From Granulicella sibirica (GTDB taxonomy: Bacteria > Acidobacteriota > Terriglobia > Terriglobales > Acidobacteriaceae): a DNA stretch of 64,000 nt. A model generated the notes under the pieces. That model did not search any database. It was not told where the DNA came from and saw only the letters and a list, made by a program, of their open reading frames with translations. A program made the position numbers and the translations under genes. The DNA lies in NCBI RefSeq assembly GCF_004115155.1, contig NZ_RDSM01000003.1:1-64000 (forward strand), read 5' to 3'. This document shows, in pieces, positions 238-56,361 of the stretch. How positions within the stretch are numbered: position 1 is the first letter of the stretch; each line of letters starts with the position of its first letter.

Positions 238-254
238 TGCGAACACAACATAAA

Positions 255-8055: not shown

Positions 8056-8170
8056 GCAAGGTGCATTCAGCTCTCAGACCCGAGTTGCAGGTCGGTTTTC
8101 AAGCCAACCAGCACTAGACCAGCGACAGGTGGCCTCAGCTTCGCTATGATTGCACTGTAAACGGAGTGCC

Positions 8171-28269: not shown

Positions 28270-28321
28270 CGGTTAGTTAGAGCCCCTCACAAGGGGCTGC
28301 GGAGATAGGAGAGGAAGTGCT

Positions 28322-28858: not shown

Positions 28859-28952
28859 TGGGTCGGACGAAAGGTCCATTCTTAGGGTCCGCAGCGTCGA
28901 CGCGTCGGTCATAGTCGAACGCACAACGCCGATCGGAGCAGGAGACTTGCAC

Positions 28953-30596
28953 ATGTCGACCGATAACAACGAGAACCACTCAGTACTCTTTCCTCGCCTT
29001 GACGCTCAAAGCCTTAGAACGCTTCAGAGAAAAGGTACTGTGCGAAAGACCACGGTGGGTGAGGTCCTGTTCAACCGGGAAACTCTACAGCATGGGCTCT
29101 TCGTGGTGCTGAGCGGCAGTATTGATCTCGTCGGCGTTGCAAACGGGCATGATTCCATTATTAGCGTGCTCGCTCAGGGTGAGTTCACGGGCGAGTTGAC
29201 TCAGCTCTCTGGTCGGAGAAGTCTTGTCTCTTGTCGAGTCTCGACAGCCGGCGAAGTTCTTGAAGTGGATCGTGCATCGTTGCGCCACATCATGCAAACG
29301 GATGCCGTCGTCGGCAACCTGCTGCTTAATGCGTTTGTGCAACGAAGAATCTATCTGATTGCGAATGCCGTGGGCGACGCAGTCCTAATCGGCTCAACCC
29401 ATTCCAGTGACACCCTACGCTTGCGCTCGTTCTTGGTACGTAACGGGCACCCCTATACCTATCTGGACATTGATGAAGATCCCGATATCCAAAGCGTTCT
29501 AGATCAGTTTGGCATTGAAGTGGCCGACATTCCGGTTCTGATCTGCAGAGGGGACGTGGTTCTGCGTGCTCCTAGCAATGCAGAAGCAGCCGTATGTTTC
29601 GACTTGAACGCTGGGGTGGACCAAACGGATGTGTTCGATGTGGTCATCGTTGGAGCTGGACCATCTGGATTGGCGGCTGCAGTTTATGCAGCATCCGAAG
29701 GACTCAACGTATTAGTTGTTGAGAGCAACGCTCCTGGTGGGCAGGCTGGATCGAGCTCCCGCATCGAGAATTACCTCGGATTCCCCTTCGGGATTTCAGG
29801 ACAAGAGTTGGCGGACGCAGCTTACATTCAGGCAGAAAAGTTTGGCGCTAGGTTATCCATTGCTCGAAGCGCCTGTACCGTGCAATGCGAGCAGCATCCT
29901 TATCGGATCAAGCTCGATGACGGAACTTTAATCCAGACCCGAACTGTTGTCGTTGCCACCGGATCTCGTTATCGTCGATTGGATATCCCTAATGTCGCTC
30001 GCTTTGATGGTAACGGAGTCTATTACGGGGCGACACAACTTGAGGCTCCTCTGTGTCAAGGCGAAGCGGTTGTAATTGTCGGAGGCGGAAATTCTGCCGG
30101 GCAAGCTGCGATCTTCCTTTCGAGTTTCGCGACTAAAGTCTATCTGCTTGTTCGTGGGCCAAATCTCAAGACCAACATGTCCAAATACCTGATCTCAAGA
30201 ATTGAGGCTTCGCCAACCATCATCCTGAAGACGCGCACGACTGTAGTGGCTCTGGAAGGTGGAGACAGGTTGGAGGGTATTCGTTGGATGGATCACTTGA
30301 CAGGCGAATCGGAAGACCATGAGGTCCGACGCCTGTTCATGATGGCTGGGGCCGACCCAAACACAAGCTGGGTGAGCGGCTGTCTTTCCTTGGACACCAA
30401 GGGATTCATAATGACGGGTACGAGCGTGCTTGCAGACTGGAGTCTCCAGCGTGCTCCCTATCCCCTAGAGACAAATGTGCCAGGAGTGTTCGCTGTAGGA
30501 GACGTGAGGGCTGAAAGCGTAAAGAGGGTAGCGTCGGCCGTGGGAGAAGGTTCCATGTGTATCCAGTTCGTTCATCGTGCACTGGCGAATCAATGA
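28953..30596 (+). CDS. Fusion: cNMP-binding domain + glutaredoxin-like domain + thioredoxin-reductase-like flavoprotein
   Basis: A 547-residue multidomain protein. Residues about 10-125 form a cyclic-nucleotide-binding/CAP effector domain (VLFNRETLQHGLFVVLSGSID, LAQGEFTGELTQLSGRRS). Residues about 140-205 resemble a glutaredoxin-like module without cysteines (SFLVRNGHPYTYLDIDED, VADIPVLICRGD). From about 225 to the end is a TrxB-like flavoprotein: VVIVGAGPSGLAAAVYAAS, GGQAGSSSRIENYLGFP, VIVGGGNSAGQAAIFL, FAVGDVRAESVKR. The catalytic CxxC of thioredoxin reductases is replaced by a Cys-free stretch (YYGATQLEAPL). The start at 28953 follows AGGAGA; an open frame extends to 28800. It overlaps or adjoins a beta-carbonic anhydrase gene. 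A regulated NAD(P)H-dependent reductase is inferred; the substrate is unknown. Confidence 0.87.
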   Translation: MSTDNNENHSVLFPRLDAQSLRTLQRKGTVRKTTVGEVLFNRETLQHGLFVVLSGSIDLVGVANGHDSIISVLAQGEFTGELTQLSGRRSLVSCRVSTAGEVLEVDRASLRHIMQTDAVVGNLLLNAFVQRRIYLIANAVGDAVLIGSTHSSDTLRLRSFLVRNGHPYTYLDIDEDPDIQSVLDQFGIEVADIPVLICRGDVVLRAPSNAEAAVCFDLNAGVDQTDVFDVVIVGAGPSGLAAAVYAASEGLNVLVVESNAPGGQAGSSSRIENYLGFPFGISGQELADAAYIQAEKFGARLSIARSACTVQCEQHPYRIKLDDGTLIQTRTVVVATGSRYRRLDIPNVARFDGNGVYYGATQLEAPLCQGEAVVIVGGGNSAGQAAIFLSSFATKVYLLVRGPNLKTNMSKYLISRIEASPTIILKTRTTVVALEGGDRLEGIRWMDHLTGESEDHEVRRLFMMAGADPNTSWVSGCLSLDTKGFIMTGTSVLADWSLQRAPYPLETNVPGVFAVGDVRAESVKRVASAVGEGSMCIQFVHRALANQ

Positions 30597-32396: not shown

Positions 32397-34022
32397 ATGG
32401 TGACTGAGATCGCAGATAGCACCGCAAGGATCGATCTAGGTCATCAGGTCTCCACCGGCATCAGCCCCTGGGTGGTTGCACTGACTGTAACGCTTGCTAC
32501 CTTCATGGAACTCCTGGATACGTCCATTGCGAACGTTTCCTTGCCATATATCGCTGGCGGTCTCGGTCGCTCCTTCGATGAGGTGACATGGATATTGACC
32601 ACGTATCTCGTTGCGAATGCAGTAGTCCTCCCGATGTCAGCCTGGCTTTCGCGCGTATTCGGCCGGAAGAACTACTACATGGCATGCGTATTTCTCTTCA
32701 CCGTTACTTCCTTTCTGTGTGGGATTGCCCCAAGTCTCCAGGTGATCCTTATCGCGCGTGTGCTCCAAGGCATTGGGGGAGGAGGCCTCGCCCCTGTCGA
32801 GCAGGCCATCCTAGTCGACGCATTTGAGCCTGCTAAGCGGGCTTCGGCGTTTGCGCTTTACACCGTAGCAATCGTGACAGCACCAGCAATAGGACCGGTG
32901 TTGGGGGGATACATCACTGACAACTTCAGTTGGCGTTGGGTGTTCTTTATCAACATTCCAGTCGGCATCTTGTCGCTCATTTTGACGAACCGATTCGTAC
33001 ATGATCCGCCCGCCTTCATCAAAGAGCGCGCTTCGGTTCGCGTCAATGGAAAGCTGCGGGTGGACGGTATCGGGATTGCTCTGGTCGGCATCGGTTCTGC
33101 TGCTCTGGAAGTTCTGTTAGATCGCGGGCAGATTGACGATTGGTTTGGCTCAACGACCATACGCTGCTGTTCCGTTATAGCGGTCGTATGTCTCAGTGCC
33201 GCTGTGTATTGGGAGCTGCACACTCCGGAACCGATCATCAACCTAAGACTCTTGAAGGTCCGGAACTTTGCAATTGCTAACGTCTTCTACTTCGTCTTCG
33301 GCGTAGGGTTGTTCGCTTCCACCACGATGATTCCTCAAATCCTGCAGTCTCTTTTCGGATATCGAGCGATCGACGCCGGACTTGTTCTGGCGCCTGGGGC
33401 GGTGGTCATCACGTTGTTGGCTCCCCTAGGCGCTCAATTGGTTCAGCGTAAGATCATCCAACCCCGAATCTTGTTGTTTGGAGCTGTAATGGTTGTCGGT
33501 ATCTCGTTCCTGCATTACAGCCGTATGACCCTCGATACCGACTTCCAACATTGGGCGCTTGCAAGGTCGCTCCAGGGTCTCGGCTACGCCTTCTTCTTTG
33601 TTCCTCTTTCGGTTCTTGCATACTCACAACTCGCGCCCGAAGACAACAACAAAGCATCTTCCCTCACTAATTTCTTCCGGAATTGGGGAGGCAGCTTTGG
33701 AATTGCGCTGGTCACGATCATGAGCGACAGACGGGCTAGTTTTCATCAGTCAATTGTCGGTGCAAATCAGACCGCATCGACAATTCCGTTGCAAACCTCG
33801 GTGAATCAGATATCTGCTTATCTCCAAATACACGGGCTATCCCATGCGGACGCTATCCATGCTGCCACCGGTCGTATTTACGAACAGCTCCAAGTCCAGA
33901 CCAGATTCCTGGCTTTCATGGACTGCTTTTACATTTTGGGCGTTGGAACGTTGATTGCTGCACCTCTCGTTTTGCTGACAAAGGGGTTCCAGATCGGCGC
34001 AAAAGTGCCTAGCGGACACTAG
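32397..34022 (+). CDS. DHA2-family MFS drug:H+ antiporter (EmrB-like)
   Basis: A 541-residue transporter with about 14 helices. TFMELLDTSIANVSLPYIAG contains the helix-1 Asp motif of EmrB, then SAWLSRVFGRKNYYMACVFL, ARVLQGIGGGGLAPVEQAIL and IGPVLGGYITDNFSWRWVFF. It is closer to classical EmrB than the transporter at 14275. GGAG precedes the ATG. There is no adaptor gene beside it, so it may share the HlyD-like and TolC-like proteins encoded at 15888-18577, or work alone. A divergent or separate regulator is not adjacent. Confidence 0.9.
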   Translation: MVTEIADSTARIDLGHQVSTGISPWVVALTVTLATFMELLDTSIANVSLPYIAGGLGRSFDEVTWILTTYLVANAVVLPMSAWLSRVFGRKNYYMACVFLFTVTSFLCGIAPSLQVILIARVLQGIGGGGLAPVEQAILVDAFEPAKRASAFALYTVAIVTAPAIGPVLGGYITDNFSWRWVFFINIPVGILSLILTNRFVHDPPAFIKERASVRVNGKLRVDGIGIALVGIGSAALEVLLDRGQIDDWFGSTTIRCCSVIAVVCLSAAVYWELHTPEPIINLRLLKVRNFAIANVFYFVFGVGLFASTTMIPQILQSLFGYRAIDAGLVLAPGAVVITLLAPLGAQLVQRKIIQPRILLFGAVMVVGISFLHYSRMTLDTDFQHWALARSLQGLGYAFFFVPLSVLAYSQLAPEDNNKASSLTNFFRNWGGSFGIALVTIMSDRRASFHQSIVGANQTASTIPLQTSVNQISAYLQIHGLSHADAIHAATGRIYEQLQVQTRFLAFMDCFYILGVGTLIAAPLVLLTKGFQIGAKVPSGH

Positions 34023-38712: not shown

Positions 38713-39834
38713 TCAGTTCGTTCTACGTTCCTGAATCGCAGCTTGTGAGCGCTCTAACGCATCAGCAATCAGCTTTTCATCGGGGAGAACAGTCCTGTAT
38801 TCCGCGGCAAGGACTTTGTTTGGCAGGTTATCGAGTGCGTAGTGAGCTTCCGCTACGCCTTTCTCCGTGCAAAGGATTAGACCAACGGGAGGATTCTCGC
38901 CAGGCTTCATCCAGTGTTCCTTGGCGTAATTGAGATAGAGGTGCATCTGACCGGCGTCAGCGTAGCCGAACTTGCCCACTTTTAGATCGACGATGAGCAA
39001 ACACCGCAAACGCCTATGAAAGAAGATGAGATCGATTCGAAACCAATTGTCATCTAAGCGCAGCCGACGTTGACGCCCCATGAACGCAAAATCGTCGCCC
39101 AGTTCGAGCAGGAAGTCCGCTAGATGTTGGATCAACGCTTCTTCGAGTTCTGATTCTGAATATTCGTCTTTCAGGTTGAGAAATTCGAGTATGAAAGGAT
39201 CTTTGATTGCTTCTTCCAGCGAGATCGCATCACCGGATTCCGGGACAGCAGCCTTTTCAAGCATCGCTGTCTTGTTACGGGATAGCGCAATGCGCTCGTA
39301 AAATTGGCTGCTAATCTGGCGGTCGAGCTGCCGAACCGACCATCCGGAACGCAACGCTTCGGTTTCGTAGAATTTGCGGGCCTTTTGGTTTCTCACCGAG
39401 AGCAACCGTACATAGGCGGACCACGGTAGCGGGAAGCGAGTCGCCACCGCGGTGATCTCCGATATGGTCGACGCCGCGGCAGGGAGAGGAGATTCTCCAG
39501 ACGGTGTCTGGAGAAAGTTCTTTTCCGGCCATGTTCGATAAAAACCCCTCATCTGCCAGAGATTGGCTCTGCCGAATCCGCGTCCGAAACGCCGCGTGAG
39601 GTCCTTGGCGAGTTGCTCTACCAGCTTCTCACCGTAATCCGCCCGGTTCTCTCCTCGCATCTCAGATTCAACAATGCGCCTTCCGATCTCCCAATAGGTC
39701 GCGGTCATAACCGCGTTGATGCTGCGCGCTGACGCGACGCGAGCGGCTTGCAACAAATCGACGATGCCGTTGCGAACATAGGCGTAGTCCGCATCTGGTC
39801 TATCCAGCTTCTGCTCAGCCATATCCAGGTCCAT
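38713..39834 (-). CDS. YhcG-type PDDEXK nuclease (DUF1016 family)
   Basis: A 373-residue protein with the N-terminal DUF1016 helical domain (TATYWEIGRRIVESEMRGE, YGEKLVEQLAKDLTRRFGRGF, NLWQMRGFYRTW) and a C-terminal PDDEXK nuclease domain. In the latter, NWFRIDLIFFHRRLRCLLIVDLKVGKFGYAD carries the catalytic Asp and the D-x-K core (quoted here only in part: RIDLIFF, VDLKVG). Members are thought to be mobile-element or restriction-associated nucleases and are frequently seen in defence islands. It is the last gene before the tRNA-Ala scar at 40057-40105. Confidence 0.9.
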   Translation of the reverse strand: MDLDMAEQKLDRPDADYAYVRNGIVDLLQAARVASARSINAVMTATYWEIGRRIVESEMRGENRADYGEKLVEQLAKDLTRRFGRGFGRANLWQMRGFYRTWPEKNFLQTPSGESPLPAAASTISEITAVATRFPLPWSAYVRLLSVRNQKARKFYETEALRSGWSVRQLDRQISSQFYERIALSRNKTAMLEKAAVPESGDAISLEEAIKDPFILEFLNLKDEYSESELEEALIQHLADFLLELGDDFAFMGRQRRLRLDDNWFRIDLIFFHRRLRCLLIVDLKVGKFGYADAGQMHLYLNYAKEHWMKPGENPPVGLILCTEKGVAEAHYALDNLPNKVLAAEYRTVLPDEKLIADALERSQAAIQERRTN

Positions 39835-40056: not shown

Positions 40057-40105
40057 TTCCATGGCATGGAAGAGGTCATCGGTTCGATCCCGATCAGGTC
40101 CACCA
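40057..40105 (+). other. 3' fragment of tRNA-Ala(GGC): integration (att) scar
   Basis: The sequence has part of an anticodon stem-loop (TTCC-ATGGCAT-GGAA, anticodon GGC in the seven-base loop), variable loop AGGTC, a perfect T-arm (ATCGG-TTCGATC-CCGAT) and an acceptor end AGGTCCACCA. No matching 5' half (D-arm or acceptor 5' strand) lies upstream. This is the standard product of integration of a mobile element into a tRNA 3' end. Because the fragment reads left to right and ends at 40105, the element lies to the left. Its other copy should be the intact tRNA-Ala(GGC) beyond the left edge. Confidence 0.85.
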
Positions 40106-40306
40106 AACAACCCCTTACAAACTATGCAGATACAGGAAGGCTTCGGGCTTTCAGGCGGTTGCGCGTTCCCCTCCGGAATGCAGTCGCGACAGGGGCAGCA
40201 GCCGACTTGATCGATATCGCTTAGGACCGCCTTCAGCGGGTAATAAGGTGAATGTGGGGGAATGTACCCCGTTCTTAAAATCTGCTATACACGCAGATAT
40301 ACACCT

Positions 40307-43300
40307 ATGAATTTACGTTTGCTTGTGCTGACTGCTGCGGGGCTCGCCGCTTTGCGTCTATCGTCTCAAACTCAAAGCCCAAGGCCTTCCGCGGATCCGT
40401 ATCGCGACGAGCCGTTTGTCTTTGAGCGCTACGACACGACTACCACCATGAAAGCCGACGGCACCGGCGATGTGGTGCAGCATGTGATCGTGCGCGTTCA
40501 GTCCGACGGTGTGGCGCGGCAGTTCAGTGTGTTGAATTTGTCTTACGCTTCGGCGAATTCGACCGCAACGATCGAGTTCGTGCGCGTACACAAGCCGGAC
40601 GGCAGCACGATCAACACGCCAGTCGACGAGGCCATGGAGATGCCCGCCGAAGCGACCCGCGAGGCCCCGATGTATTCGGATCTGAAAGAGAAGCATCTGC
40701 CCGTGCGCAGCCTTGCGACGGGCGATCGGCTTGAATATCAGTTCCACACCGTCCTCACCAAGGCGCAAGCTCCGGGCCGATTCTGGGGGGCGGAGCATTT
40801 CCTGGTGCAGGGTGGCGTGGTTCTGGAACAGAGCCTAACGCTCGCCGTACCGGAAAAGACCTACGTGCAGGTTTGGAGTCCGAACCACAAAGCGACGCCC
40901 ATGACGCGCGACGGGATGCAGGTGTGGACGTGGACTTCTTCCCAGACCAAGGCAAGCGCGCGCGATGAGAACGGCAAGATGACCGCGGCCGAGGTGAAGG
41001 ATCCGGACGAGGATGCCGACGGGCGCAAGCTCCCGAGCGTGGCGTGGACCAGCTTCCATAGCTGGGATGAGGTGGGTGCGTGGTACCGCAGCCTGGCCGA
41101 GGAGCGGCTCCAGCCTACGGACAGCGTGCGAGCGAAAGCCGATGAGCTCACCAGGAATGCGAAAACACCTCAGGAGCAGGCAGAGGCGCTCTATCGCTTC
41201 GTTGCGACGCAGATCCGCTATATCTCGCTTTCCTTCGGTGTTGGCCGCTTCCAGCCGCATACGCCTGACGAGGTGTTGGACCATGGCTATGGCGATTGCA
41301 AGGACAAGGACACCCTCCTGGAGAGCCTGCTGCGCGCCAAGGGGATGACCACGGCACCCGTGCTCATTGGGGCGGGGATTGCGCCGGTGATGGATGTGCC
41401 CTCACCTGCGGTCTTCAACCACGCCATCACGACAGTCGAACTGCCGGATGCCTCTGGCAAGCCGGAGCGAGTGTGGCTCGATTCCACTGCCGAGGTAGCA
41501 CCCTTCCGCGTGCTGATGCCGGTTATCCGCGATCAGCAGGCGCTCGTCATTCCGGATAAGACCCCGGCCACACTCGAGAAGACTCCGGCGAACCCTCCTT
41601 ATGCCTATTACGAGGACTTTGTTGCCGATGGCACGTTGGACAGCGAGGGCCTGCTGAAGAGCCACATGGTATTGACCGCGCGGTCTGACACCGAGTTGGA
41701 CTTGCGCTCCATGATGCAGCGCCTCTCGCCCGCGCAATGGGATGACGCGATGCAGTATCTCTCGGGGGCAATGGGCTTTGGCGGTAAGGTGAGCGGCACG
41801 GACATGCGCCAGACCGACGCAGCCGCGCCGGTCAAGATCACCTACGACTACAGCCGCGAGAAGTACGCCGGATGGGAGAACAAGCAGTCTTTGCCGCTCT
41901 TTCCCGCAGTGGAACTCACTATTGTGAGCGAAGAGAAGGCTCCCGAACACGATATCGACCTTGGCGCGCCGCGTACCGTTGAGGCTCACAGCACGATGGC
42001 CCTTCCCGCGGGTTATCGTGCGGAGCTGCCCGATGCCGTTCATGTCTCCCGGGAGTTCGCTACCTATGACAAGACCTATCGCCTGATCGACGGGAAGGTC
42101 ATTGCGGATCGCAAGCTGGTCGTCAAGGTGCATAAGCTGCCGCGCGACCGGTGGAAGGATTACCTTGCGTTTCAGAAGGCGACGCTCGTGAACGACGGAG
42201 AGCCTTACCTTCGGCTCATCCCACCCGATCACCTCACGATCACGAAGGAGGGCGCGAAGAGCGCATCCGCCGCGCCAGCAAAGGATACGAGGCCTGCGGC
42301 GGAGCCCTCGAATCCCGTCGACACGCGACAGCAGCTTGCAGAGATCAACTTGATGCTGCAGCGGAGAGATGTCGCTGGTGCGCGCATCCGTCTTGAGAGT
42401 TTACGCAAGAGCTCGCCGGATGCGCCTTACGTCCTGGGTATGCTTGGGCTCGTCAAGGCGAATGACGGGGATTTCGACTCCGGCGCCCGCGATGTCGACG
42501 CGGAGATGAAGGCGCACCCCGATGATGACCCGTGGATGGTACTCGGGCTGGCCCAGGAGTACAGCAACAAGCAGCGTTATACCGATGCCGATGCCTTGTT
42601 AAGCAAGTACAGCGGCAGCAACGAACGGGTCCAGAAGATGCGTATCTTCGTTCTTGAGAAACAGGGCGACTATACGCATGCACTCGGAGTGCTGCGCGAT
42701 CTGCAGGCGCGTCAGCCCGAAGACCGAGCGGTCGCGACGCAGGTGGCGAGCGCACTGTATGAACTGCATCGCAACGAAGAAGCCGCCATGGCCGCCAAGA
42801 AGGCGATGGACGGCAGCGATGATCCGGATGTCATCAACAACAATGTCTACGTGCTGTCCGAGACGAAGATCGATCTACCATTCGCGGAGGCCCAGTCGCG
42901 CCGCTCAGTCGATCTGCTGGAGAAGGCGACCGCCTTGCAGGTTCTGGAAGAGTCCAATACGAAGGCCTTTGCTGCGTCGGCGAACCTCACAGCCTCATGG
43001 GACACGCTGGGCTACATTCTTCTGCTGCAGGGCAAGTCGAAGGAGGCCGAGCCGTACCTGCGCGCGGCATGGTTCTCCCAGGAAAACGTCATTGTCGGCA
43101 ATCACCTGGCGCAGGCGTTCAAGGCTCTCGACCGCAATGCGGATGCGCTATGGATGTATCGGCTTGCGAAGCAGGCGGATCATGCCGCCGACGCGAAGCA
43201 GGACTATGCCGAAGTGGTCGCAGCCATCGCGCGTCTTGAGAAAGCCGGGATCAAGGCGGCCAGCGGCGAGGGTTTTGCCACGTCGATGCAGGACTTTCGC

Positions 43301-43582
43301 AGCTACCACGTGAAGAATGGCGCGGGCGCGGAGGGTGGCGGCACGGTGCGGCTACAGTTGAACGCCGATGGTGTCGCGGCAGCGATGCTCGTCTCGGGCG
43401 ATGCAAAATTGAAACCCTTGTTGGAAGAGGCGAAGTCGCTGCGTCTACCCGGCGCGGAGCCGTCCGGATCGTCCGCGCGTGTGCTGCGTGACGCGGTTGT
43501 GTACTGCGGTAAGAAGAGCTCGACCTGCGATCTGGTGTTCATGCTCAACTCTGGTATCGCGGTGGAAGGCGCGTCGGAGTAG
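40307..43582 (+). CDS. Exported DUF3857 / transglutaminase-like protein with TPR region
   Basis: A 1091-residue protein. Signal peptide (MNLRLLVLTAAGLAALRLSS), then a DUF3857 beta domain, then a transglutaminase-like domain whose catalytic triad is Cys331 (GYGDCKDKD), His372 (FNHAITTVEL) and Asp392 (VWLDSTAEV). From about 690 onward there are TPR-like repeats (RRDVAGARIRLESL, EYSNKQRYTDADALLSKY, YTHALGVLRDL, HRNEEAAMAAKKAM). The last 80 residues form a TonB-like or peptide-binding tail (GGTVRLQLNADGVAAAMLV). Such proteins are periplasmic and common in Acidobacteria and Bacteroidetes; function is not defined. The ATG at 40307 begins the signal peptide. It is the first gene of the G+C-rich core. 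Confidence 0.88.
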   Translation: MNLRLLVLTAAGLAALRLSSQTQSPRPSADPYRDEPFVFERYDTTTTMKADGTGDVVQHVIVRVQSDGVARQFSVLNLSYASANSTATIEFVRVHKPDGSTINTPVDEAMEMPAEATREAPMYSDLKEKHLPVRSLATGDRLEYQFHTVLTKAQAPGRFWGAEHFLVQGGVVLEQSLTLAVPEKTYVQVWSPNHKATPMTRDGMQVWTWTSSQTKASARDENGKMTAAEVKDPDEDADGRKLPSVAWTSFHSWDEVGAWYRSLAEERLQPTDSVRAKADELTRNAKTPQEQAEALYRFVATQIRYISLSFGVGRFQPHTPDEVLDHGYGDCKDKDTLLESLLRAKGMTTAPVLIGAGIAPVMDVPSPAVFNHAITTVELPDASGKPERVWLDSTAEVAPFRVLMPVIRDQQALVIPDKTPATLEKTPANPPYAYYEDFVADGTLDSEGLLKSHMVLTARSDTELDLRSMMQRLSPAQWDDAMQYLSGAMGFGGKVSGTDMRQTDAAAPVKITYDYSREKYAGWENKQSLPLFPAVELTIVSEEKAPEHDIDLGAPRTVEAHSTMALPAGYRAELPDAVHVSREFATYDKTYRLIDGKVIADRKLVVKVHKLPRDRWKDYLAFQKATLVNDGEPYLRLIPPDHLTITKEGAKSASAAPAKDTRPAAEPSNPVDTRQQLAEINLMLQRRDVAGARIRLESLRKSSPDAPYVLGMLGLVKANDGDFDSGARDVDAEMKAHPDDDPWMVLGLAQEYSNKQRYTDADALLSKYSGSNERVQKMRIFVLEKQGDYTHALGVLRDLQARQPEDRAVATQVASALYELHRNEEAAMAAKKAMDGSDDPDVINNNVYVLSETKIDLPFAEAQSRRSVDLLEKATALQVLEESNTKAFAASANLTASWDTLGYILLLQGKSKEAEPYLRAAWFSQENVIVGNHLAQAFKALDRNADALWMYRLAKQADHAADAKQDYAEVVAAIARLEKAGIKAASGEGFATSMQDFRSYHVKNGAGAEGGGTVRLQLNADGVAAAMLVSGDAKLKPLLEEAKSLRLPGAEPSGSSARVLRDAVVYCGKKSSTCDLVFMLNSGIAVEGASE

Positions 43583-43872
43583 ATCGCGCATGAATGGGGC
43601 GGGAGTTCGCGTCCAAAGACTCGCGTGAGCCGAAGTGTCCTGACCACTCGCTCTTGCGCACTCGATCGATGGAACCAGAGGCTGTTGTGATCGTACGTCT
43701 GGTGAAGCAGCATCCCAGATAGTTGACGCCTACGGTGGTGCGATGTGCGAGTTCGCCGGTAGGACACCGAGCGCAAGGGATGGCGTGTTTGCGCATATCA
43801 CTTACGATGCATATCTTGATGGCATAGAACCACCAAAGGCGCTCCGGCAGGTACGGGGGCGGGGAGATCGAC

Positions 43873-44271
43873 ATGCCGAAGATGACAAGGCGCGGAATGC
43901 TGCGCCAGAGCGGCCTCGCCGCAGGGGCCATTACACTCTTGTCCATGACACCACAGACAGCTTCCGCCGCGAGCAACGATTCCAGCGTCTTCCATATCTT
44001 TGCCTTTATCTGGAACGAGGGAGTCTCGGCCGCGCAGAAGGAACGGGCGCGGAAAGAGATTCTTTCCTTCCAGGGAGTGATCCCGGGATTGATGCAGACG
44101 CATGTGGGACCGAATATTTCGCCTCGCGGGAAGGGCTATACCTTCGGCGGCGTGATGCAGTTCAAGGATCAAGCGGCGCTCGACGCGTATGTGCAACATC
44201 CAAAGCACCAGGCCCTGCTTGTGTGGCTCAAACCACTGATCGACGCGGTCGAACTCGATCTGAATAGCTGA
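43873..44271 (+). CDS. Exported Dabb-domain (stress-responsive alpha/beta barrel) protein
   Basis: A 132-residue protein. A Tat-like leader (MTRRGMLRQSGLAAGAITLL, twin Arg) is followed by a ferredoxin-like Dabb domain: VFHIFAFIWNEGVSAAQKER, LSFQGVIPGLMQTHVGPN, GYTFGGVMQFKDQAALDAYV and HPKHQALLVWLKPLIDAV. Dabb proteins are dimeric and bind small molecules; most functions are unknown. The preceding ribosome site is GGGGAG. There are two possible start codons three codons apart. No clear operon partner. Confidence 0.8.
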   Translation: MPKMTRRGMLRQSGLAAGAITLLSMTPQTASAASNDSSVFHIFAFIWNEGVSAAQKERARKEILSFQGVIPGLMQTHVGPNISPRGKGYTFGGVMQFKDQAALDAYVQHPKHQALLVWLKPLIDAVELDLNS

Positions 44272-44561
44272 TCGATCCTGCGAGTTTCGACATTGGGTGA
44301 GATTTGCGTTTGTGGCGCGATCCTGGCGCCAAGTGCTTCCGGGGAAAACTCCTCAGGCGCGGGGCTATTCCAGCCGCCTGGCACGTGGAGACGCCTTCCC
44401 CCAAGCCGCAAATCGCCTGTTCGTGGCTAAGACTTGGCCCTGAAGATTTGTCTTATGGACGGTCGCGATTCGGTCTTCGCAGCGTCTCGGCCGAACATCC
44501 AGTGACGCGTGTAGTCTGTTGCGATCAAGCGCCCGTCTTACACGGGACTAGGAGTTTCGCA

Positions 44562-47261
44562 ATGAAATGGCAACCCGCTGTCATCCTTGGCTTTGCTTTC
44601 GTGGCCGTTCTTGTACCAATTTCGGGGCAGACCGTACCCGCTGAAGCGTCGAATGAGACAAGAGTCGATCGGCTTTTGTCGCAGATGACCCTGGAAGAGA
44701 AGATGAACCTGATTCGCGGGGATGTTGAGCCGGCCGCCACCAATCAGGGCCAGGCTGGCTACCTGCCGGGTGTGCCGCGTCTCGGTGTGCCGTCGCTACG
44801 CTTCGCTGATGGCCCTCCGGGGGTCTTGACGCGCGTGGCGGGACAGGCGCAGTCCGCCACCATGGCCGTGGCCGCCACCTGGAGCTTGAACGATGCCGAG
44901 CAGAACGGTGCCGCGATCGGCAAGCAGGCGCGTTCGCTGGGCATCGACGTGGTGCTGCAGCCGTTCATCAATATCGACCGCGATATCACCTTCGCGCGGA
45001 GCTACAACACGCTGGGCGAAGATCCTTTCCTGACCGGCGCGATGGGCGCGGCCGAGATCCGTGGCGAGCAGGCACAGGGCGTCATGTCGCAGGCCAAGCA
45101 TTATGTCGCCTACGACTCGGATTCCTACAACGTCTTTGTGGATTCGCAGACGCTCCACGAGGTCTACGTTGCCCCGTTTGAAGCGGCCATCCATGCCGGT
45201 GTCGCGTCCATCATGTGTTCGTACAACAAGATCAACGGACCGTTTGCCTGTGGCAACGGGGACACGCTGAAGACGATCCTGCGGGATGAGATCGGCTTCA
45301 AAGGCTTCGTTACGTCGGACTGGGGCGGCGTTCACAACGTGCATTTTCTCAACCAGGGCCTGACCATGGAGATGCCGGGGGAACTGGCGTCCGACAGTCC
45401 TTTCGCCGCCATGATGCGCACCTACTTCCGGACCAGCCCTGAAGACAGCGCAGCGCCTTCCAAACCCAACACGGGGGCCCTGGCCGGTATGCTGGGCGGC
45501 ACGATCCCGGAGGAGACGAAGGGCGGCAGCATGGATCTCGACGCCTTTCCCATGGATTCTGATTCGGCGACGATGAGGACGGCGCTGCAGGATGGCTCCA
45601 TTAACGAAGCAGCCATCACGGCGGCGGCGCGGCACGTGCTTTACGAGATTGATCGCTTCGGCTTCCTCGATGGCAAGCAGAAGCACGATGTGACGCTGCA
45701 GGACTTCAAGGCGAACGGAGAGATCATCGAGAAAACCGCCGAAGATGCAGCCGTGCTGCTGAAGAATGAAGGTGGCGTACTGCCGCTCAAGGCCAGGGGT
45801 AGCATCGCGCTGATTGGACCAACGGCGGGCCAGGTCGCCGCGATCGGCACCTTCGGCGAGCGTTCGCCGGGAGTCCCGGAACTGCAGACCGGACCACTGG
45901 CCGCGCTGAAGCAACTCGCGCCCGGAGCGAAGGTGACGTACGCGGTTGCCGATGACATGACGGGAGCGACTATCGGAGCCTCTCTCCTGAGTCACGACGG
46001 CAAGCCCGGCCTTCTCCGGACAAGCGCGGACGGAGCGAGCCGTGTCGACGCGGTTCTCGACTTCACGAAGGGCAACAGAAAAGCGCTTCCGGCGAACAGC
46101 GTGGTGACGTGGAAGGGTGAGGTTCAGATCCCGGCGGCGGGGGCGTACTGGTTCTATCTTCAGCTTCTGGGTACACGCGGAATACTGAGCATCGACGGCA
46201 AGGAAGTCGGCCGCAGCGGCGCGGTGAAGGGAACGGTTCACGGCGATGTGCAGCACGCTACGCAGGATAACGGTCTGCCGACAACGGATGGGCTGGACAA
46301 TATCCGCCGGGCCGTCGAGCTCACGGCGGGCAAACACGCGATTGAAGTGGTGACGTCGATCGATACCTCGAACGCACCGGTGCAGGTTCGCCTCAACTGG
46401 ATGACTCCCGAGGCCCGCGCAAGGGCTCACCAAGAGGCGATCGCCGCGGCGAAGTCATCTGACACGGCCGTGGTCTTCGCGTGGACGCGGGACAAACCTC
46501 ACTTCGAACTGCCGGGCGACCAGGACAAGCTCATCGAGGAGATCGCGGCAGTCAACCCGAATACGGTGGTGGTTTTGAACACGAGTCAGCCGGTGGCGAT
46601 GCCGTGGATCGACAAGGTGAAGGGCGTTGTCGAGATGTGGTGGCCCGGAGACGAGGGTGGGCCGGCCGAGGCAAAGACACTGCTTGGCCTCAATAATCCC
46701 GGCGGCAAACTGCCGATGACCTGGGCGAAATCGCTTGAGGATTATCCGGCGACGTCGCCGGCGCACCCGGAGCGGTCGGCGAAGGGCGTCGACGGGAAGA
46801 CGACTTTCTCGGAAGGGCTTCTTGTCGGCTATCGATGGTTCGACGATCAGAAGATCGAGCCTCGTTATCCCTTTGGCTATGGGCTTTCCTATACGACCTT
46901 CGAGCTCTCCGGGCTTGCGACCAAAACGGCAAGCGATGGTGGCTTCGATGTCACGTTCAAGGTAAAGAACACGGGCGCAATGCGCGGAGATGAGGTTCCG
47001 CAGGTGTATCTCGCCGCACCCGCGTCCCGCCCGCAGGGAGTACAGTTCGCTCCGAAAACATTGGTTGCGTTTGAACGTGTCTCGCTTAGGGCGGGGGAGG
47101 AGAAGACCGTGTCACTGCATGTTCCGCTGCGCGCGATGCAGTACTGGTCCGAGAGCAAGAAGCAGTGGGTCAAGGCTGACGGGCCGAGGGAGCTGTTTGT
47201 CGGAGATTCCTCGAGAGCGCTTCCGCTCAGCGGGACCGTTGCCTTACCGGGCGGGCTCTAG
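44562..47261 (+). CDS. GH3 beta-glucosidase with PA14 domain, exported
   Basis: An 899-residue exported glycoside hydrolase family 3 enzyme (signal peptide MKWQPAVILGFAFVAVLVPI). The GH3 N-terminal domain has LPGVPRLGVPSLRFADGPPG, ARSYNTLGEDPFL, QAKHYVAYDSD and the nucleophile Asp253 in GFVTSDWGGVH. The GH3 C-terminal sandwich (VLLKNEGGVLPLK, ALIGPTAGQVAAIG) is split by a PA14 domain (about 470-600, KGEVQIPAAGAYWFYLQLLG). A fibronectin-III-like end follows (YPFGYGLSYTTFELSG, GDEVPQVYLAAP). The arrangement GH3-PA14-Fn3 is typical of beta-glucosidases and xylosidases that degrade plant oligosaccharides. AGGAG precedes the ATG. A Gfo/Idh/MocA gene follows 68 bases on. Confidence 0.93.
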   Translation: MKWQPAVILGFAFVAVLVPISGQTVPAEASNETRVDRLLSQMTLEEKMNLIRGDVEPAATNQGQAGYLPGVPRLGVPSLRFADGPPGVLTRVAGQAQSATMAVAATWSLNDAEQNGAAIGKQARSLGIDVVLQPFINIDRDITFARSYNTLGEDPFLTGAMGAAEIRGEQAQGVMSQAKHYVAYDSDSYNVFVDSQTLHEVYVAPFEAAIHAGVASIMCSYNKINGPFACGNGDTLKTILRDEIGFKGFVTSDWGGVHNVHFLNQGLTMEMPGELASDSPFAAMMRTYFRTSPEDSAAPSKPNTGALAGMLGGTIPEETKGGSMDLDAFPMDSDSATMRTALQDGSINEAAITAAARHVLYEIDRFGFLDGKQKHDVTLQDFKANGEIIEKTAEDAAVLLKNEGGVLPLKARGSIALIGPTAGQVAAIGTFGERSPGVPELQTGPLAALKQLAPGAKVTYAVADDMTGATIGASLLSHDGKPGLLRTSADGASRVDAVLDFTKGNRKALPANSVVTWKGEVQIPAAGAYWFYLQLLGTRGILSIDGKEVGRSGAVKGTVHGDVQHATQDNGLPTTDGLDNIRRAVELTAGKHAIEVVTSIDTSNAPVQVRLNWMTPEARARAHQEAIAAAKSSDTAVVFAWTRDKPHFELPGDQDKLIEEIAAVNPNTVVVLNTSQPVAMPWIDKVKGVVEMWWPGDEGGPAEAKTLLGLNNPGGKLPMTWAKSLEDYPATSPAHPERSAKGVDGKTTFSEGLLVGYRWFDDQKIEPRYPFGYGLSYTTFELSGLATKTASDGGFDVTFKVKNTGAMRGDEVPQVYLAAPASRPQGVQFAPKTLVAFERVSLRAGEEKTVSLHVPLRAMQYWSESKKQWVKADGPRELFVGDSSRALPLSGTVALPGGL

Positions 47262-47329
47262 GAGTGTTTCGGAGAACAAAGGTCAAGCGGCGCTGATACG
47301 ATCCTCGGGAACATCTCTTTAGGAGCAAC

Positions 47330-48505
47330 ATGAACGTGACGCCGAATCGCCGCAGCTTCCTCATTGCGGGCGGACTGACCGCCCTTGCTTCCACGCGAGC
47401 TTTTGGTGCGAACGAGAAGATTCGCATTGGCGTCATCGGCGCGGGAGGGCGGATGCACGCGCTGCTGTCTTCCGCCGAAGCTTCGGGGGTTCCGTTCGAG
47501 ATCGTCTCGGTAAGCGATGTCTACGCGCCCAACCGCGAACAGGTGAAGACGCGGCCAAGCGCCACGGCAGCGACGACGCACATGGACTTTCGCGAGGTTC
47601 TGGACGACAAGAGCATCGACGCCGTCCTCATCGCGACTCCCGACCACTGGCACGTGCGGATCGCCTGCGCTGCGTTAGCCGCTGGTAAAGACGTGTACCT
47701 CGAAAAGCCGGTGACGCACACGCTTGAAGAAGGCGCGGCCCTTCTGAAAGGCGTGCGTTCGAGCAAGCAGATTTTGCAATGCGGCATGCAGCAACGAAGC
47801 TGGAGCCACTTCCGCAATGCCGTAGCGCTCATACAGGGCGGTGCGCTTGGGCGGGTCACGCAGGTGCGGACCTACTGGTGGCAGAACTACGACACGAACT
47901 GGGTGCCGAAGCCGATCGACGAATCGCAGCTTGACTGGAAGCAGTGGCTCGGCGGGGCGCCGGATCAGCCGTTCAACCTGGAAACATACAGCCGCTGGCG
48001 GTGGTTCTGGAACTTCGGCGGAGGCGCGATGACCGACCTTTTCGCGCACTGGATCGACGTGGCGCAATGGGCCATGAAGGCGGATGAGCCGTCGATGGCC
48101 TTCATGCTCGGCGACAACTACGTGATGAAACAGTGGCAATGTCCGGATACGATCCAGGCGGCGTTTCGCTATCCAGGGTTCGACGTAGTGTACGAAGGAA
48201 TGATGAGTTCGTCGATTGATGATGGCGGGCTGGAGTTCCGCGGGACCCAGGCGACGCTGAAGATTACGCGCTCGGGGATGACCGTGTGGCACGAGGGCGT
48301 GAAATCAGCCCAGAATCCGGTGATGAAGGAAGACAGCTTCGAGGACGGGACAACGACGCACATGCGGAACTTCTTCGAGTGCGTAAAGACGCGCAAGGAG
48401 CCGAACGCCCCGGTTGAGGCTGGCGTTGCAGCCGCGAGGGCGGGGCACATCGGGAATCTGGCCTATCACAAGGGCGGTCACACGGCCTGGCCGGCGAATG
48501 CTTAG
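47330..48505 (+). CDS. Tat-exported Gfo/Idh/MocA-family oxidoreductase
   Basis: A 391-residue protein with a Tat signal (NRRSFLIAGGLTALAS, twin Arg), then a Rossmann domain (IRIGVIGAGGRMHALL, ATPDHWHVRIACAALAAGKD, VYLEKPVTHTLEEG with the family Glu-Lys-Pro motif) and a C-terminal domain with DLFAHWIDVAQWAM. The family oxidises or reduces sugars with a tightly bound NAD(P), and exported members are characteristic of Acidobacteria and Planctomycetes. AGGAGC precedes the start. Its place right after a beta-glucosidase suggests carbohydrate turnover. Confidence 0.9.
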   Translation: MNVTPNRRSFLIAGGLTALASTRAFGANEKIRIGVIGAGGRMHALLSSAEASGVPFEIVSVSDVYAPNREQVKTRPSATAATTHMDFREVLDDKSIDAVLIATPDHWHVRIACAALAAGKDVYLEKPVTHTLEEGAALLKGVRSSKQILQCGMQQRSWSHFRNAVALIQGGALGRVTQVRTYWWQNYDTNWVPKPIDESQLDWKQWLGGAPDQPFNLETYSRWRWFWNFGGGAMTDLFAHWIDVAQWAMKADEPSMAFMLGDNYVMKQWQCPDTIQAAFRYPGFDVVYEGMMSSSIDDGGLEFRGTQATLKITRSGMTVWHEGVKSAQNPVMKEDSFEDGTTTHMRNFFECVKTRKEPNAPVEAGVAAARAGHIGNLAYHKGGHTAWPANA

Positions 48506-48510
48506 GCTCG

Positions 48511-49221
48511 TTAGCGGTTCGCTTCGAGAACCTGGATGCCGTCGGGGCTTCCGATGACGACGCGGTTCGCCATGCCAAGGAAGAGTCCGTGCTCGACGAC
48601 GCCGACGGTGTGCTTGAGCGCCTCGGCGTTCCCCTCCGTGGTCCGTTCGGAAGGCAGGGCACAGTGGAAGATGTAGTGCTGGCCATCGGTGATGTAGGGC
48701 GTTCCATCCTCTTTCATGCGCATCTCAGGAGCGAATCCAAGGTCTGAGAGGCGTTTGTAGGTGGTTTCCCACCCGAAGGGGACGATTTCGACGGGAAGCT
48801 GGAAGACCGAGCCGAGCGTCTTGACGAGCTTGCTTGGGTCAACAGCGATGAGGAGCTTGTCGCTTGCCATGGCGACGATCTTTTCGCGGAGGAGCGCGCC
48901 GCCGTGCCCCTTGATGAGATGGAGCGTTCCTTCCTGGACCTCGTCCGCTCCGTCGATCGTGACGTCGAGGCGGGGCGTGTCGCCGAAGTTGGACATGGGA
49001 ATCTTGAGCGATTCGGCTTGCTCCTGCGAGCGGAGGGAGGTGGCGATCGCGGTGATCTTCATGCCTTCGGCTACGCGCCTGCCGACTTCGGCGATGACGA
49101 GCGCGGATGTCGAGCCGGATCCCAGACCGACTTTCATGCCGTCTTCAATCTGTGATGCGGCCCACTGTGCCGCTGCGCGCTTCGCTGCCTCTGCCGGATC
49201 GTTCTGCTTCGGAAGACTCAT
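48511..49221 (-). CDS. rpiA: Ribose-5-phosphate isomerase A
   Basis: A 236-residue enzyme of the expected length that interconverts ribose 5-phosphate and ribulose 5-phosphate in the pentose phosphate pathway. GLGSGSTS at 32-39 binds phosphate, DVTIDGADEV contains the catalytic Asp, and KGHGGALLREKIVA contains the catalytic Lys/Glu region. The C-terminus has HTVGVVEHGLFLGMA. It is convergent with the Gfo/Idh/MocA gene (5 bases between ends) and divergent from the dehydrogenase at 49299. Housekeeping gene, consistent with core chromosome. Confidence 0.95.
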   Translation of the reverse strand: MSLPKQNDPAEAAKRAAAQWAASQIEDGMKVGLGSGSTSALVIAEVGRRVAEGMKITAIATSLRSQEQAESLKIPMSNFGDTPRLDVTIDGADEVQEGTLHLIKGHGGALLREKIVAMASDKLLIAVDPSKLVKTLGSVFQLPVEIVPFGWETTYKRLSDLGFAPEMRMKEDGTPYITDGQHYIFHCALPSERTTEGNAEALKHTVGVVEHGLFLGMANRVVIGSPDGIQVLEANR

Positions 49222-49298
49222 GCCCTAGTTGATATCACGTGCACGGGACAGAGCACCAGACGATAGCGCGTTTGTCCGCGTTGAGGCAGACTTGAACC

Positions 49299-50258
49299 AT
49301 GGTGCGAGTTGGTGTGGACGGAAGGATTCAAGAGGAGTTTCTTGTCGATTTTCCCAAGGATGTAGAGATTGTGCGTATTCCCGAGGGGATTTCGGAGCCG
49401 ATCGAGATCGATTTCTGGATTCCTCCGTTTGCGCGGAAGAACTCCCAGGACACCTTCCGCATGCTGCGCGGAGTCAAGGTGGTGCAGTCCATTCTGGCTG
49501 GAGTGGACTGGATCCTGCCGTGGCTGCCCAAGGACATTACTCTGTGCGACGGGCAGGGAGTTCACGATGTGATGGTGTCGGAGTGGGTTCTCGCGGCGAT
49601 TTTGACTTCGTTGAAGCGCTTTTACGTCTATCGCGATCAGCAGCACCGCAAGGAATGGCGCGGAGCTGGAGAGCCTGGAGACACGGTGCTGCACGTCGGG
49701 GAACAGTACCAGGTGCTCGGGGACGACCTGGCTGGAAAGACAGTGCTGATTGTCGGCTATGGATCGATCGGTAAAGCTATCGAGGCGCGTCTCAAGCCCT
49801 TTGAAGTCAATGTTTTACGCATTGCGAGAACAGCGCGGACGGAGCCTGAGGTTTCCACGGTTGGCGATCTGCATCGGCTGCTCCCGGACGCGGATATCGT
49901 GGTGGTGATCGTGCCCATGACGCCGAAGACCAAAGGAATGATAGGGATACAGGAGATTGCCTTGATGAAGCGGGGGGCTCTGCTGGTGAATGCCGCGCGG
50001 GGGCCGGTGGTGGTGACGGAGGTTTTGGTGGAGGCGCTGGAGGAGAGCCGGATCTTCGCGGCGCTCGATGTGACCGATCCGGAACCTCCGCCTCAGGGGC
50101 ATCCCCTTTGGAATGCGCCACATTGCATCATCACCCCGCATGTGGCGAGCTCGACGCCTGCGCTTCTGCATCGAGCTTATCGGCTTGCGGCGGATCAGGT
50201 TCGGCGGTTTGCGGGGGGTGAACCGCTCCAAAATGTGGTGGCAGAAGACGGTTATTAG
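49299..50258 (+). CDS. D-isomer-specific 2-hydroxyacid dehydrogenase
   Basis: A 319-residue NAD-dependent dehydrogenase. The NAD-binding domain has LVGYGSIGKAIE-like Gly motif (VGYGSIGKAIEARL), DIVVVIVPMTPKTKGMIG, the catalytic Arg in LVNAARGPVVV, the acidic residue in ALDVTDPEPP and the His in HPLWNAPHCIITPHVASST. The N-terminal catalytic domain contains VQSILAGVDWILPWL and VHDVMVSEWVLAAIL. Substrate may be glyoxylate, hydroxypyruvate or a related acid; not resolved from sequence. It is divergent from rpiA with a 77-base gap. Confidence 0.9.
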   Translation: MVRVGVDGRIQEEFLVDFPKDVEIVRIPEGISEPIEIDFWIPPFARKNSQDTFRMLRGVKVVQSILAGVDWILPWLPKDITLCDGQGVHDVMVSEWVLAAILTSLKRFYVYRDQQHRKEWRGAGEPGDTVLHVGEQYQVLGDDLAGKTVLIVGYGSIGKAIEARLKPFEVNVLRIARTARTEPEVSTVGDLHRLLPDADIVVVIVPMTPKTKGMIGIQEIALMKRGALLVNAARGPVVVTEVLVEALEESRIFAALDVTDPEPPPQGHPLWNAPHCIITPHVASSTPALLHRAYRLAADQVRRFAGGEPLQNVVAEDGY

Positions 50259-50368
50259 CGGTTAACTTGTGGCCGTTGTATGGCTAACAGTGTCGAGTCT
50301 GCCCCGGAGAGGCGGAACGCTCTCCGGGGGCGGTGATCTGCTACGAGCGATGAGGCGGCTTTTGAGGA

Positions 50369-50728
50369 CTAAGCGTCTTCGTCGTCCTCATCCTCTTCTT
50401 CGTCTTCGTCGTCATCTTCCTCGTCTTCGTCCTCTTCTTCCTCTTCTTCGTCGTCTTCGAGGTCGTCGTCTTCGTCCTCATCGTCGAGGTCGTCCTCGTC
50501 GTCGTCTTCGAGGTCGTCGTCATCGTCTTCATCCGCCTCTAACTCGTCGTCATCCTCGATTTCGTCTTCTTCGTCGAGGGCGGACTTGCGTCCGGCGACC
50601 TCGAGGTTTTCGCTGCCTGCGTGTTCCGTCGGGTTGGCCGGTGCGCCTGCAGGTTCAAATGCCGCGGTCGCGTCCGGGCCGATGGTGCTGAACTTGTCGA
50701 TGGGGTCCTGATTTGGCTGGATGGCCAT
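50369..50728 (-). CDS. Extremely acidic, Asp/Glu-repetitive small protein
   Basis: A 119-residue protein. The first 50 residues are polar and ordinary (MAIQPNQDPIDKFSTIG). The last 65 are almost only Asp and Glu with a few Leu and Ala, for example DDDEDDLDDEDEDDD. AAGGAGA stands just before the ATG, so translation is well supported. Predicted net charge is strongly negative, and the tail should be disordered. It could bind cations, basic proteins or nucleic-acid-binding factors. No homologue with a function is recognised. The coding DNA is a pure-looking GAC/GAG repeat run that could be slippage-prone. It lies between the dehydrogenase and YihY genes. Confidence 0.75.
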   Translation of the reverse strand: MAIQPNQDPIDKFSTIGPDATAAFEPAGAPANPTEHAGSENLEVAGRKSALDEEDEIEDDDELEADEDDDDDLEDDDEDDLDDEDEDDDLEDDEEEEEEDEDEEDDDEDEEEDEDDEDA

Positions 50729-51135
50729 GTTGCTTCTCCTTGAAGTTTAGGTGGTTCGAAGAGTGGAGTTGCGCGTTGTTCAGGGTTGGATGCAGCACGT
50801 TGCAAAGGGTGGCAGAGAAATCGGAGCGGATTGTTAAAGTTTTGGGCGATCGGGAAAGAGTCCGTGGCCGTTGATGGATCAGGGAAGACTACCCTGCCTG
50901 TTGTTACGTGTTGAATACGAAGTCGTTCCCTGGTGGCTACCAGTCCGAGGAAATGCGGCATCTATCTAGACGCAGGGTTGACGGCTTCGGGTTCGTTCTG
51001 TCCGGTCCTGCATCACGACTCCAAGCGAATAGCATGCCGGTCCGGAATTTGACGCAAGGGGCCGGTCAAGGTAATCCAGCCCGAACGCGCGAATCGTTCC
51101 GAGGATGCAACGGAATAGTTCAAGGAGCGACCGAC
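50729..51135. other. Intergenic region upstream of the YihY/BrkB gene
   Basis: About 400 bases with no supported gene. The open frame of the YihY/BrkB gene extends into it, but without ribosome site or conserved sequence. Confidence 0.4.
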
Positions 51136-52254
51136 GTGCCGACCCCGGAGATGCTCAAAGACGTATCCCGTCCTGTGCCAGCGAGCCCGCCCGCGACACA
51201 GATTGCAAGTCAACAGCCGCGCTCGTCCATGAGCGACCCCAAAGACCACAGCCTCGTGAAGAAGCCCGAAGTGCTGCGGCAGCGAATCTGGGACCACGTC
51301 TCCGCCTCGCCACTGCACTCGCTGTGGGATCTGCAGGGCGTTGCCCCGATGGTGATCGTGAAGCGCACGTTCAACTCGTTCAACGAGGACAACCTGCTGA
51401 GCCGGGCGGCTGAACTTGGATACTATTTTCTGTTTGCCCTGTTCCCCACGCTGGTGAGCGCGTCATCGATCCTTGGACTCGCGGCACGGTCGGCCTCGGA
51501 GATCTACTACAAGCTCCTGAACTACTTGTCGATCGTTGTTCCGCATGCCGCGCTTGGGATTGTTCTCGACACCTTCAACCAGACCACCGCGCATGCAAGC
51601 GGGGGCAAGATCACATTCGGGCTGGCGGCGGCGGTGTGGTCGGCATCGGTCGGGTTTACGGCGATTCAGGACACGCTGAATACCGTGTACAAGGTGAGGG
51701 AGACGAGGCCTTACTGGAAGGTCCGCGGAGCGGCGATGCTGGTCACCATCCTGCTCTCGCTGATTGTGACGGCGACGCTGGCGACGCTGTTCGGAGCCGA
51801 TTTTTCGGCTCGATACATGGAAGCGCATATGTCGAGGCCAAGCTTCGGACTTGCGATTGGCTGGCTCACCCGAGGGCTTTCGTGGATTGTAGCAGCGGGG
51901 CTCCTGATCCTTTTGTTTGCCGTGATCTATTACTTCGCGCCGGACGTGAAGAATAAGAGGTGGCACTGGCTGACACCGGGTGGCGCGCTTGGCATTGGCG
52001 GATGGCTGATTGCGTCGATCGTGCTGCGAATTTACCTGCACTATTTCGATAACTACTCGGTCACGTATGGGTCGCTGGGTGCGGTGATCATTTTGCTGAC
52101 GTGGTTCTACATCACGGGCTTGATGCTTCTGCTGGGGGCGGAGATCAACAGCGAGATCGCGGCATCGGTGGCGGAGAAGAAGCTGACGGGGACGACGCCT
52201 TCGCCGGAAGGACCAATTGCGCCCGCGGGGGTGAATCCGGCTATCGTTGCTTAG
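51136..52254 (+). CDS. YihY/virulence factor BrkB family membrane protein
   Basis: A 372-residue inner-membrane protein with six or so helices: LGYYFLFALFPTLVSASSILGL, YYKLLNYLSIVVPHAALGIV, FGLAAAVWSASVGFTAIQDTLN, MLVTILLSLIVTATLATLF, GLLILLFAVIYYFAPDVKNK and LTWFYITGLMLLLGAEINSE (each quoted in part). The family was once thought to be RNase BN, which is incorrect; the role is uncertain. The GTG at 51136 is chosen because AAGGAG stands eight bases before it; the ATG at 51229 would remove 31 residues and lacks a ribosome site. It precedes a DinB gene by 18 bases. Confidence 0.87.
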   Translation: MPTPEMLKDVSRPVPASPPATQIASQQPRSSMSDPKDHSLVKKPEVLRQRIWDHVSASPLHSLWDLQGVAPMVIVKRTFNSFNEDNLLSRAAELGYYFLFALFPTLVSASSILGLAARSASEIYYKLLNYLSIVVPHAALGIVLDTFNQTTAHASGGKITFGLAAAVWSASVGFTAIQDTLNTVYKVRETRPYWKVRGAAMLVTILLSLIVTATLATLFGADFSARYMEAHMSRPSFGLAIGWLTRGLSWIVAAGLLILLFAVIYYFAPDVKNKRWHWLTPGGALGIGGWLIASIVLRIYLHYFDNYSVTYGSLGAVIILLTWFYITGLMLLLGAEINSEIAASVAEKKLTGTTPSPEGPIAPAGVNPAIVA

Positions 52255-52271
52255 GGTAGCTGGAGGATGAC

Positions 52272-52766: not shown

Positions 52767-52810
52767 TGGGTGGCTCAAGTGAGCCGATATTGGGGCTATG
52801 GCCGCATTCG

Positions 52811-54697: not shown

Positions 54698-54789
54698 GTA
54701 TTCCGTGTCTCGATTCGTGGGAGGCGTGCCTGTGCCCTTAGTTTATCGGGTTAACGAACGGTGAACAGGCTACAATCTCGGCACACTCC

Positions 54790-56313: not shown

Positions 56314-56361
56314 CCGCAATCCGATCGGCGGCTGGCGCATCCAATAGCGGGAGAGTCCTGG

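Follow-up and report, generated by a model that had tools for sequence, protein, structure and literature searches.

Genomic islands at tRNA genes are well known, as is the way in which they insert, and tandem accretion at such hotspots is described, for example, for the asparagine tDNAs of Klebsiella (PMC4891358). The locus described here, which lies partly in a 64,000-nucleotide stretch of Granulicella sibirica DNA (the window), is a tRNA-integrated island of this familiar kind, now delimited, recently moved and set in a hotspot. As in the known islands, one end has an intact tRNA gene and the opposite end a 3' fragment; it also shares with them a convergent integrase gene, deviating G+C content, variable content and, in relatives, several islands behind one tRNA. 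Tested against the features by which such islands are recognized, it shows intact tRNA and 3' repeat as its ends, an adjoining integrase, a deviant composition and a different content in relatives at the same site. It differs in its Acidobacteriota host, in the tRNA-Ala(GGC) site, in the near-identical copy found in a second species and in an integrase clade that has Gln instead of the customary His in the second catalytic box.

In what follows, G000 denotes the window's genome, C3 the window's contig, and other G-numbers relatives within the genus. The sequence-only reading had described a 49-bp tRNA-Ala(GGC) 3' fragment without a 5' half, and had taken it for the right end of an island of at least 40 kb that extended to the left and whose integrase and full length lay outside the window. 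The fragment is present as described: window 40057-40105 comprises the anticodon stem-loop with GGC, the T-arm and the acceptor 3' strand with CCA, its 5' half is absent, and no complete tRNA was called in the window (ARAGORN; Rfam at gathering cut-off). The exact match proved even longer, since window 40057-40121 is repeated directly and without mismatch over 65 bp at C4:244313-244377, the repeat consisting of the tRNA-Ala(GGC) 3' part and 16 bp of downstream sequence. The runner-up matches in G000 to a 76-bp query are far weaker (three of 42 bp, 86-88% identity), so that the 65-bp match is not fortuitous, and its exact identity rules out a chance resemblance to tRNA. The intact tRNA-Ala(GGC) gene that shares the last 49 bases lies on another contig than the window (C4:244286-244361, plus strand), in the orientation expected of a partner, and is adjoined by a gene for a 440-residue tyrosine integrase, which converges on the tRNA and ends 16 bp from its 3' end. 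Integrase and full length were thus rightly placed outside the window, and the predicted minimum of 40 kb has become a total of about 79 kb. The fragment is almost certainly the attR of one integrated genomic island at tRNA-Ala(GGC), with the following limits (positions without a contig name are those of the window):

C4:244313-280090: left part of the island, the unit being shown by G070
C4:244378-245700, minus strand: tyrosine integrase (PF00589, 41.7 bits, cut-off 27.1)
1-40056: right part of the island
40057-40121, plus strand: attR, the tRNA-Ala(GGC) 3' part (40057-40105) plus 16 bp, right end of the island (exact 65-bp repeat; the identity shared with G070 stops inside this copy)
40122-64000: right chromosomal flank, G+C 0.615

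Base composition changes at the same limits. Mean G+C is 0.634 before the tRNA, 0.547 in the C4 part of the island, 0.546 in window 1-40056 and 0.615 in window 40122-64000, so that the island deviates from both flanks. Plotted per kb, values of 0.519-0.546 in the 4 kb left of the fragment give way to 0.592-0.620 in the 5 kb from the fragment rightward; the right side had been called richer from the letters, and the step from 0.546 to 0.615 does fall at the fragment. Window 1-2700 is an exception that counts against the island reading: its G+C of 0.596 is host-like, and it contains parB, one half of ardC and the terminal part of a RIT-like element.

Also counting against a single island is the location of its two ends on separate contigs, which could be joined in other ways if the overlaps were the only guide. 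The window begins at base 1 of C3, and C4 (280,090 bp) ends 35.7 kb past the tRNA, both contig ends lying inside a repeated element. C11 (3,373 bp), when reversed, overlaps exactly with the end of C4 (125 bp) and the start of C3 (127 bp); the C1 start and C10 end also enter C11, and the C2 end also leaves it, which makes the overlaps ambiguous by themselves. G070, another species, in which the region is on one contig, resolves the join, as C4 sequence up to L038 base 15971 continues there directly at window position 280 through an unbroken ardC. The six bases GCGCAC, common to both sides of the RIT insertion in G000, are shared by the two parts at the G070 join. The G070 unit bridges the gap and indicates that C4 and C3 are joined as one island, the assembly of G000 having broken at a RIT-like element of about 3.5 kb that interrupts ardC:

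1-279, plus strand: 3' end of the RIT-like element (C-terminal part of the third tyrosine recombinase, 1-167, and terminal repeats), with the 127-bp overlap with reversed C11; absent from the corresponding place in G070, the rest being on C11 and the C4 end
280-582, plus strand: 3' half of ardC, read from the sequence; uninterrupted in G070
L038:15081-15971, at the end of C4: 5' half of ardC (ArdcN match)

Provided that one RIT copy fills the gap, the island measures 35,778 + 3,121 + 40,056 = 78,955 bp; we infer that there is exactly one. C11 encodes three Phage_integrase proteins (Pfam), and the element, about 3,519 bp between its junctions if C11 is the copy in the C4-C3 gap, has three adjacent overlapping tyrosine recombinase ORFs and terminal inverted repeats. 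It resembles in these respects, and in its size of about 3.5 kb, the RIT elements of PMC3414803, which according to passages of that paper are often found on genomic islands; it differs from them in that six ends fall at one ardC position, whereas the same passages name radC and a transposase gene among other sites. These six ends (window 1-285, the C4 end at L038:15966-16090, the C1 start, and the ends of C2, C3 and C10, to which C11 is to be added) comprise three 5' and three 3' halves of ardC, and the element appears to split the genes at one position, in the codons of HExxH. Its end motif occurs seven times in G000 and was found in one of 59 other genomes searched (G006).

The same comparison bears on when the island moved. 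G070:C1:3351011-3414861 aligns with it over 60,228 bp at 99.97% identity (17 mismatches, one gap base), and the unit passes uninterrupted from C4 sequence into window sequence and stands between two tRNA copies. On the left, the shared identity starts at tRNA position 31; on the right, scattered matches aside, it stops in the tRNA fragment just past CCA. Because both limits fall in tRNA copies, the shared unit is the stretch bounded by two att copies. Ahead of the tRNA, G000 and G070 are about 76% alike, and other flank genes, in their longer matches, are 66-73% alike and located elsewhere in G070. Identity of 99.97% in the island, against about 66-76% for chromosomal genes, argues that the island has moved recently between species. 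The two copies are not the same throughout: G070 lacks part of the integrase together with 15 kb that adjoin it (L037:1118-16109), carries 1.4 and 2.2 kb of extra DNA, and has, behind one tRNA, a series of att copies in which its unit takes second place. Conserved synteny of the 3-40 kb genes across the genus would speak against an island and was not observed; an 8.5-kb cargo probe (window 13.0-21.5 kb, E <= 1e-200) matched 6 of 62 genus genomes, G000 included. Near-full-length matches outside G000 were found in G070 (100%), in G053 (88%; C9:89314-97796) and in G011 (87%; C1:4150380-4158855), the latter two being blocks that contain the exporter listed below, and the G011 block (C1:4.15 Mb) lies away from the tRNA-Ala(GGC) locus. 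A delimited and recently transferred island is thereby available in Acidobacteriota, a phylum abundant in soil.

The C4 part carries genes for a LysR regulator, a helicase, a DUF4011/MTES_1575 protein, DUF2130, RES and SRAP proteins, hydrolases, regulators and a transposase. In the window, the island encodes:

929-2464, plus strand: ParB-family protein (PF02195, PF17762; TIGR00180 above cut-off)
3075-4972, minus strand: two short-chain dehydrogenases, 3075-3923 and 4217-4972 (PF13561)
5749-6351, plus strand: TetR regulator (Pfam)
6389-7366, minus strand: AraC regulator (Pfam)
8150-8827, plus strand: second TetR regulator (Pfam)
8864-9493, minus strand: response regulator (Pfam)
9483-12626, minus strand: two-component propeller kinase (Pfam)
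14275-18577, plus strand: three-gene exporter of MFS permease, TolC-like outer membrane protein and HlyD/EmrA-like adaptor (PF07690, PF02321, PF13437); NCBIfam EmrB/TolC/EmrA matches are below curated cut-offs
21597-23222, minus strand: MFS transporter (PF07690)
26878-30596, plus strand: two pyridine nucleotide-disulphide oxidoreductases, the second with a cyclic-nucleotide-binding domain
32397-34022, plus strand: DHA2-type MFS efflux permease (PF07690; TIGR00711 above cut-off)
38713-39834, minus strand: YhcG-type PDDEXK nuclease (DUF1016), last gene before attR (PF06250, PF17761; PADLOC PDC-S02)

Two of these genes are possibly defensive, namely that of the YhcG-type nuclease and that of the DUF4011/MTES_1575 protein (C4:248963-253990, i.e. 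L037:4963-9990; PADLOC Hhe, PDC-S37); the latter falls in the 15 kb missing from G070.

Integrative and conjugative or mobilizable elements resemble the island in site-specific integration and recent transfer between species, and an integrative and conjugative element or prophage would account for that transfer. A TraI helicase-associated model matches the helicase next to the integrase, though barely (27.5 bits against a cut-off of 27), and the island encodes ArdC and ParB, both of which are common on plasmids. However, a Pfam scan of 51 island ORFs recognized no relaxase, type IV secretion, capsid, terminase or tail family, and we consider an element of either type unlikely. Because no transfer genes were recognized among these ORFs, the island presumably arrived with help from an outside transfer system, and its near-identity with the G070 copy makes the transfer route a concrete question. 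Still less probable, and by a clear step, is the arrival of the C4 and window parts as several elements, separately, in tandem or nested. Tandem arrays do occur at the site in relatives, as in the three fragments behind one G070 tRNA, and the island is mosaic in content, its middle being occupied by a plasmid-like ardC-parB stretch whose G+C is higher; yet L037, L038 and the window hold no further tRNA-Ala 3' fragment above 30 bits, and in G070 stretches from both parts lie in a single unit between two att copies. The absence of an internal fragment and the G070 unit disfavour separately arrived parts for the unit that moved, while an older assembly from several elements is possible. That the fragment is a chance or inherited tRNA relic, with no island and with C3 unrelated to C4, could be entertained when the two tRNA copies were seen on separate contigs owing to the contig break, but it is refuted by the G070 unit and opposed by the 65-bp identity, 16 bp of it outside the tRNA, and by the G+C step at the fragment, which together leave it next to no probability.

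For the single island, we propose that a tyrosine integrase, most likely the adjoining one, recombined the attP of the element with the segment of the tRNA gene that begins with the anticodon arm and reaches the 3' end. The element would have carried its own copy of the tRNA 3' part, so that the tRNA would remain whole on the left, with the displaced 3' part found at the right end. Since fragment starts in the genus cluster at tRNA positions 28-32, strand exchange probably occurred in or near the anticodon loop; among the matches listed, position 32 (14 of 42) and position 28 (9 of 42) are the commonest starts.

In the integrase, Arg218, Lys253, Arg339, His361 and Tyr371, which we take to be the catalytic positions, are invariant in 13 aligned sequences (15 loci tried, 3 dropped for an early stop). 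The second catalytic box of tyrosine integrases is usually HxxR; here Gln336 stands three residues before Arg339, in the place of the His. A search of solved structures gave no match to the integrase at E <= 1e-3. Its relatives in public records (32 loci, all titled as Acidobacteriota or groups within, some being same-genome or near copies, such as L149 and L150 with identical integrases) adjoin tRNA-Ala(GGC) sequence in 30 cases, 3-246 bp past the matched integrase part and on the opposite strand: 21 have the whole tRNA, seven a 3' fragment and two a shorter piece (L169, 21 bp; L175, 25 bp). The other two are L155, without room before the contig end, and L179, without tRNA-Ala(GGC) sequence. 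Within the genus, 33 of 60 genomes gave 51 integrase matches at E <= 1e-20, some of them pieces of one gene. Of these, 21 are at most 500 bp from a tRNA-Ala(GGC) copy or fragment (23 tRNA copies entered) and 30 are farther. Fourteen of the farther loci were fetched; 11 adjoin tRNA-Val(CAC), two its 3' fragment and one (L203) a 26-bp Ala-like piece. The 13 Val-associated loci (L193-L202, L204-L206) form a sister clade, 48-52% identical to the island integrase. In a tree of 30 sequences, the 16 Ala rows chosen (12 of the 32 public loci, together with G000, G001, G011 and G014) and the 13 Val rows split on one branch with support of 100/100, L203 falling on the Ala side; this separation indicates that target choice follows integrase descent, and the sister clades lend themselves to asking how a tyrosine integrase switches its tRNA target. 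We put forward, as a proposal that stands evenly balanced, that an Acidobacteriota integrase family with sister clades each dedicated to one tRNA, Ala-GGC or Val-CAC, the Ala clade having Gln for the usual His, made tRNA-Ala(GGC) a main hotspot of this soil genus and continues to move islands of 60-80 kb from one species to another without recognized transfer machinery.

Judged from the genomes compared, the tRNA-Ala(GGC) site is a genus-wide integration hotspot. A search of 60 genus genomes with the tRNA plus 16 bp, in which full-length matches of 78-82% were left out as other tRNA genes and fragment counts are lower bounds, yielded among the matches listed an intact copy at >=91% in 54 of 60, and none at that level in G004, G019, G022, G043, G051 and G063, whose stated completeness is 63-88%. 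At least 42 tRNA 3' fragments occur in at least 29 of the 60 genomes, G000 included, so that the fragment is a simple marker by which such islands may be sought in other genomes of the group. In all 28 same-contig pairs among the matches listed, from 22 genomes, the fragment lies downstream of the intact copy on the same strand, 27 of them at distances of 2.9 to 270 kb and one, in G071, at 2.2 Mb, which need not bound one island. None of the titles found on acidobacterial genomic islands or tRNA-Ala attachment sites names a tRNA-Ala(GGC) hotspot, and we do not claim that it is unpublished. In G015 a second full-length tRNA-Ala(GGC) copy (C47:24575-24665, 91% over the query) lies near the flank cluster described below, with a weaker fragment adjoining.

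The genes right of the island had been read as core genes such as rpiA. The identity of rpiA holds, but window 40-49 kb is not syntenic with the relatives examined.

48511-49221, minus strand: rpiA
49299-58202: gene cluster from 2-hydroxyacid dehydrogenase to aldo/keto reductase, with members downstream of tRNA-Ala(GGC) in G001, G002, G011, G014 and G023

Window 40122-49298 has host-like G+C (0.612) and carries DUF3857, GH3, Gfo/Idh/MocA and rpiA genes; nothing syntenic with it was found at the tRNA locus of the fetched relatives. A close relative of its first gene (40262-43582, DUF3857), 88% identical in DNA, lies at an unrelated location in G014, where further matches within 100 kb amounted to two short low-complexity stretches and one of 40 bp. 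The cluster (window 49-58 kb) is represented behind the tRNA by its first gene at 52 kb in G001 and 70 kb in G014, and by its sodium:solute symporter gene at 75 kb in G002 and 73 kb in G011. G023 shows neither a fragment nor an integrase match at E <= 1e-20; its cluster starts 6.9 kb from the tRNA, across an interval of host-like G+C with carbohydrate genes and an outer membrane protein gene. The tRNA-to-cluster intervals of other relatives vary in size and content, and G003, G041 and G070 are counter-examples, with cluster and tRNA far apart or on separate contigs. The block at 50908-56313 runs opposite to its neighbours' direction when compared with G001, G011, G014, G015 and G023, and on this account is probably inverted in G000. 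Low-complexity repeats with a periodicity of about 9 bp occupy window 50374-50597, where a minus-strand ORF would be acidic-rich, and tandem 20-bp direct repeats, TTCGCTTAGTCGAGCTCCAC, occupy window 63757-63856.
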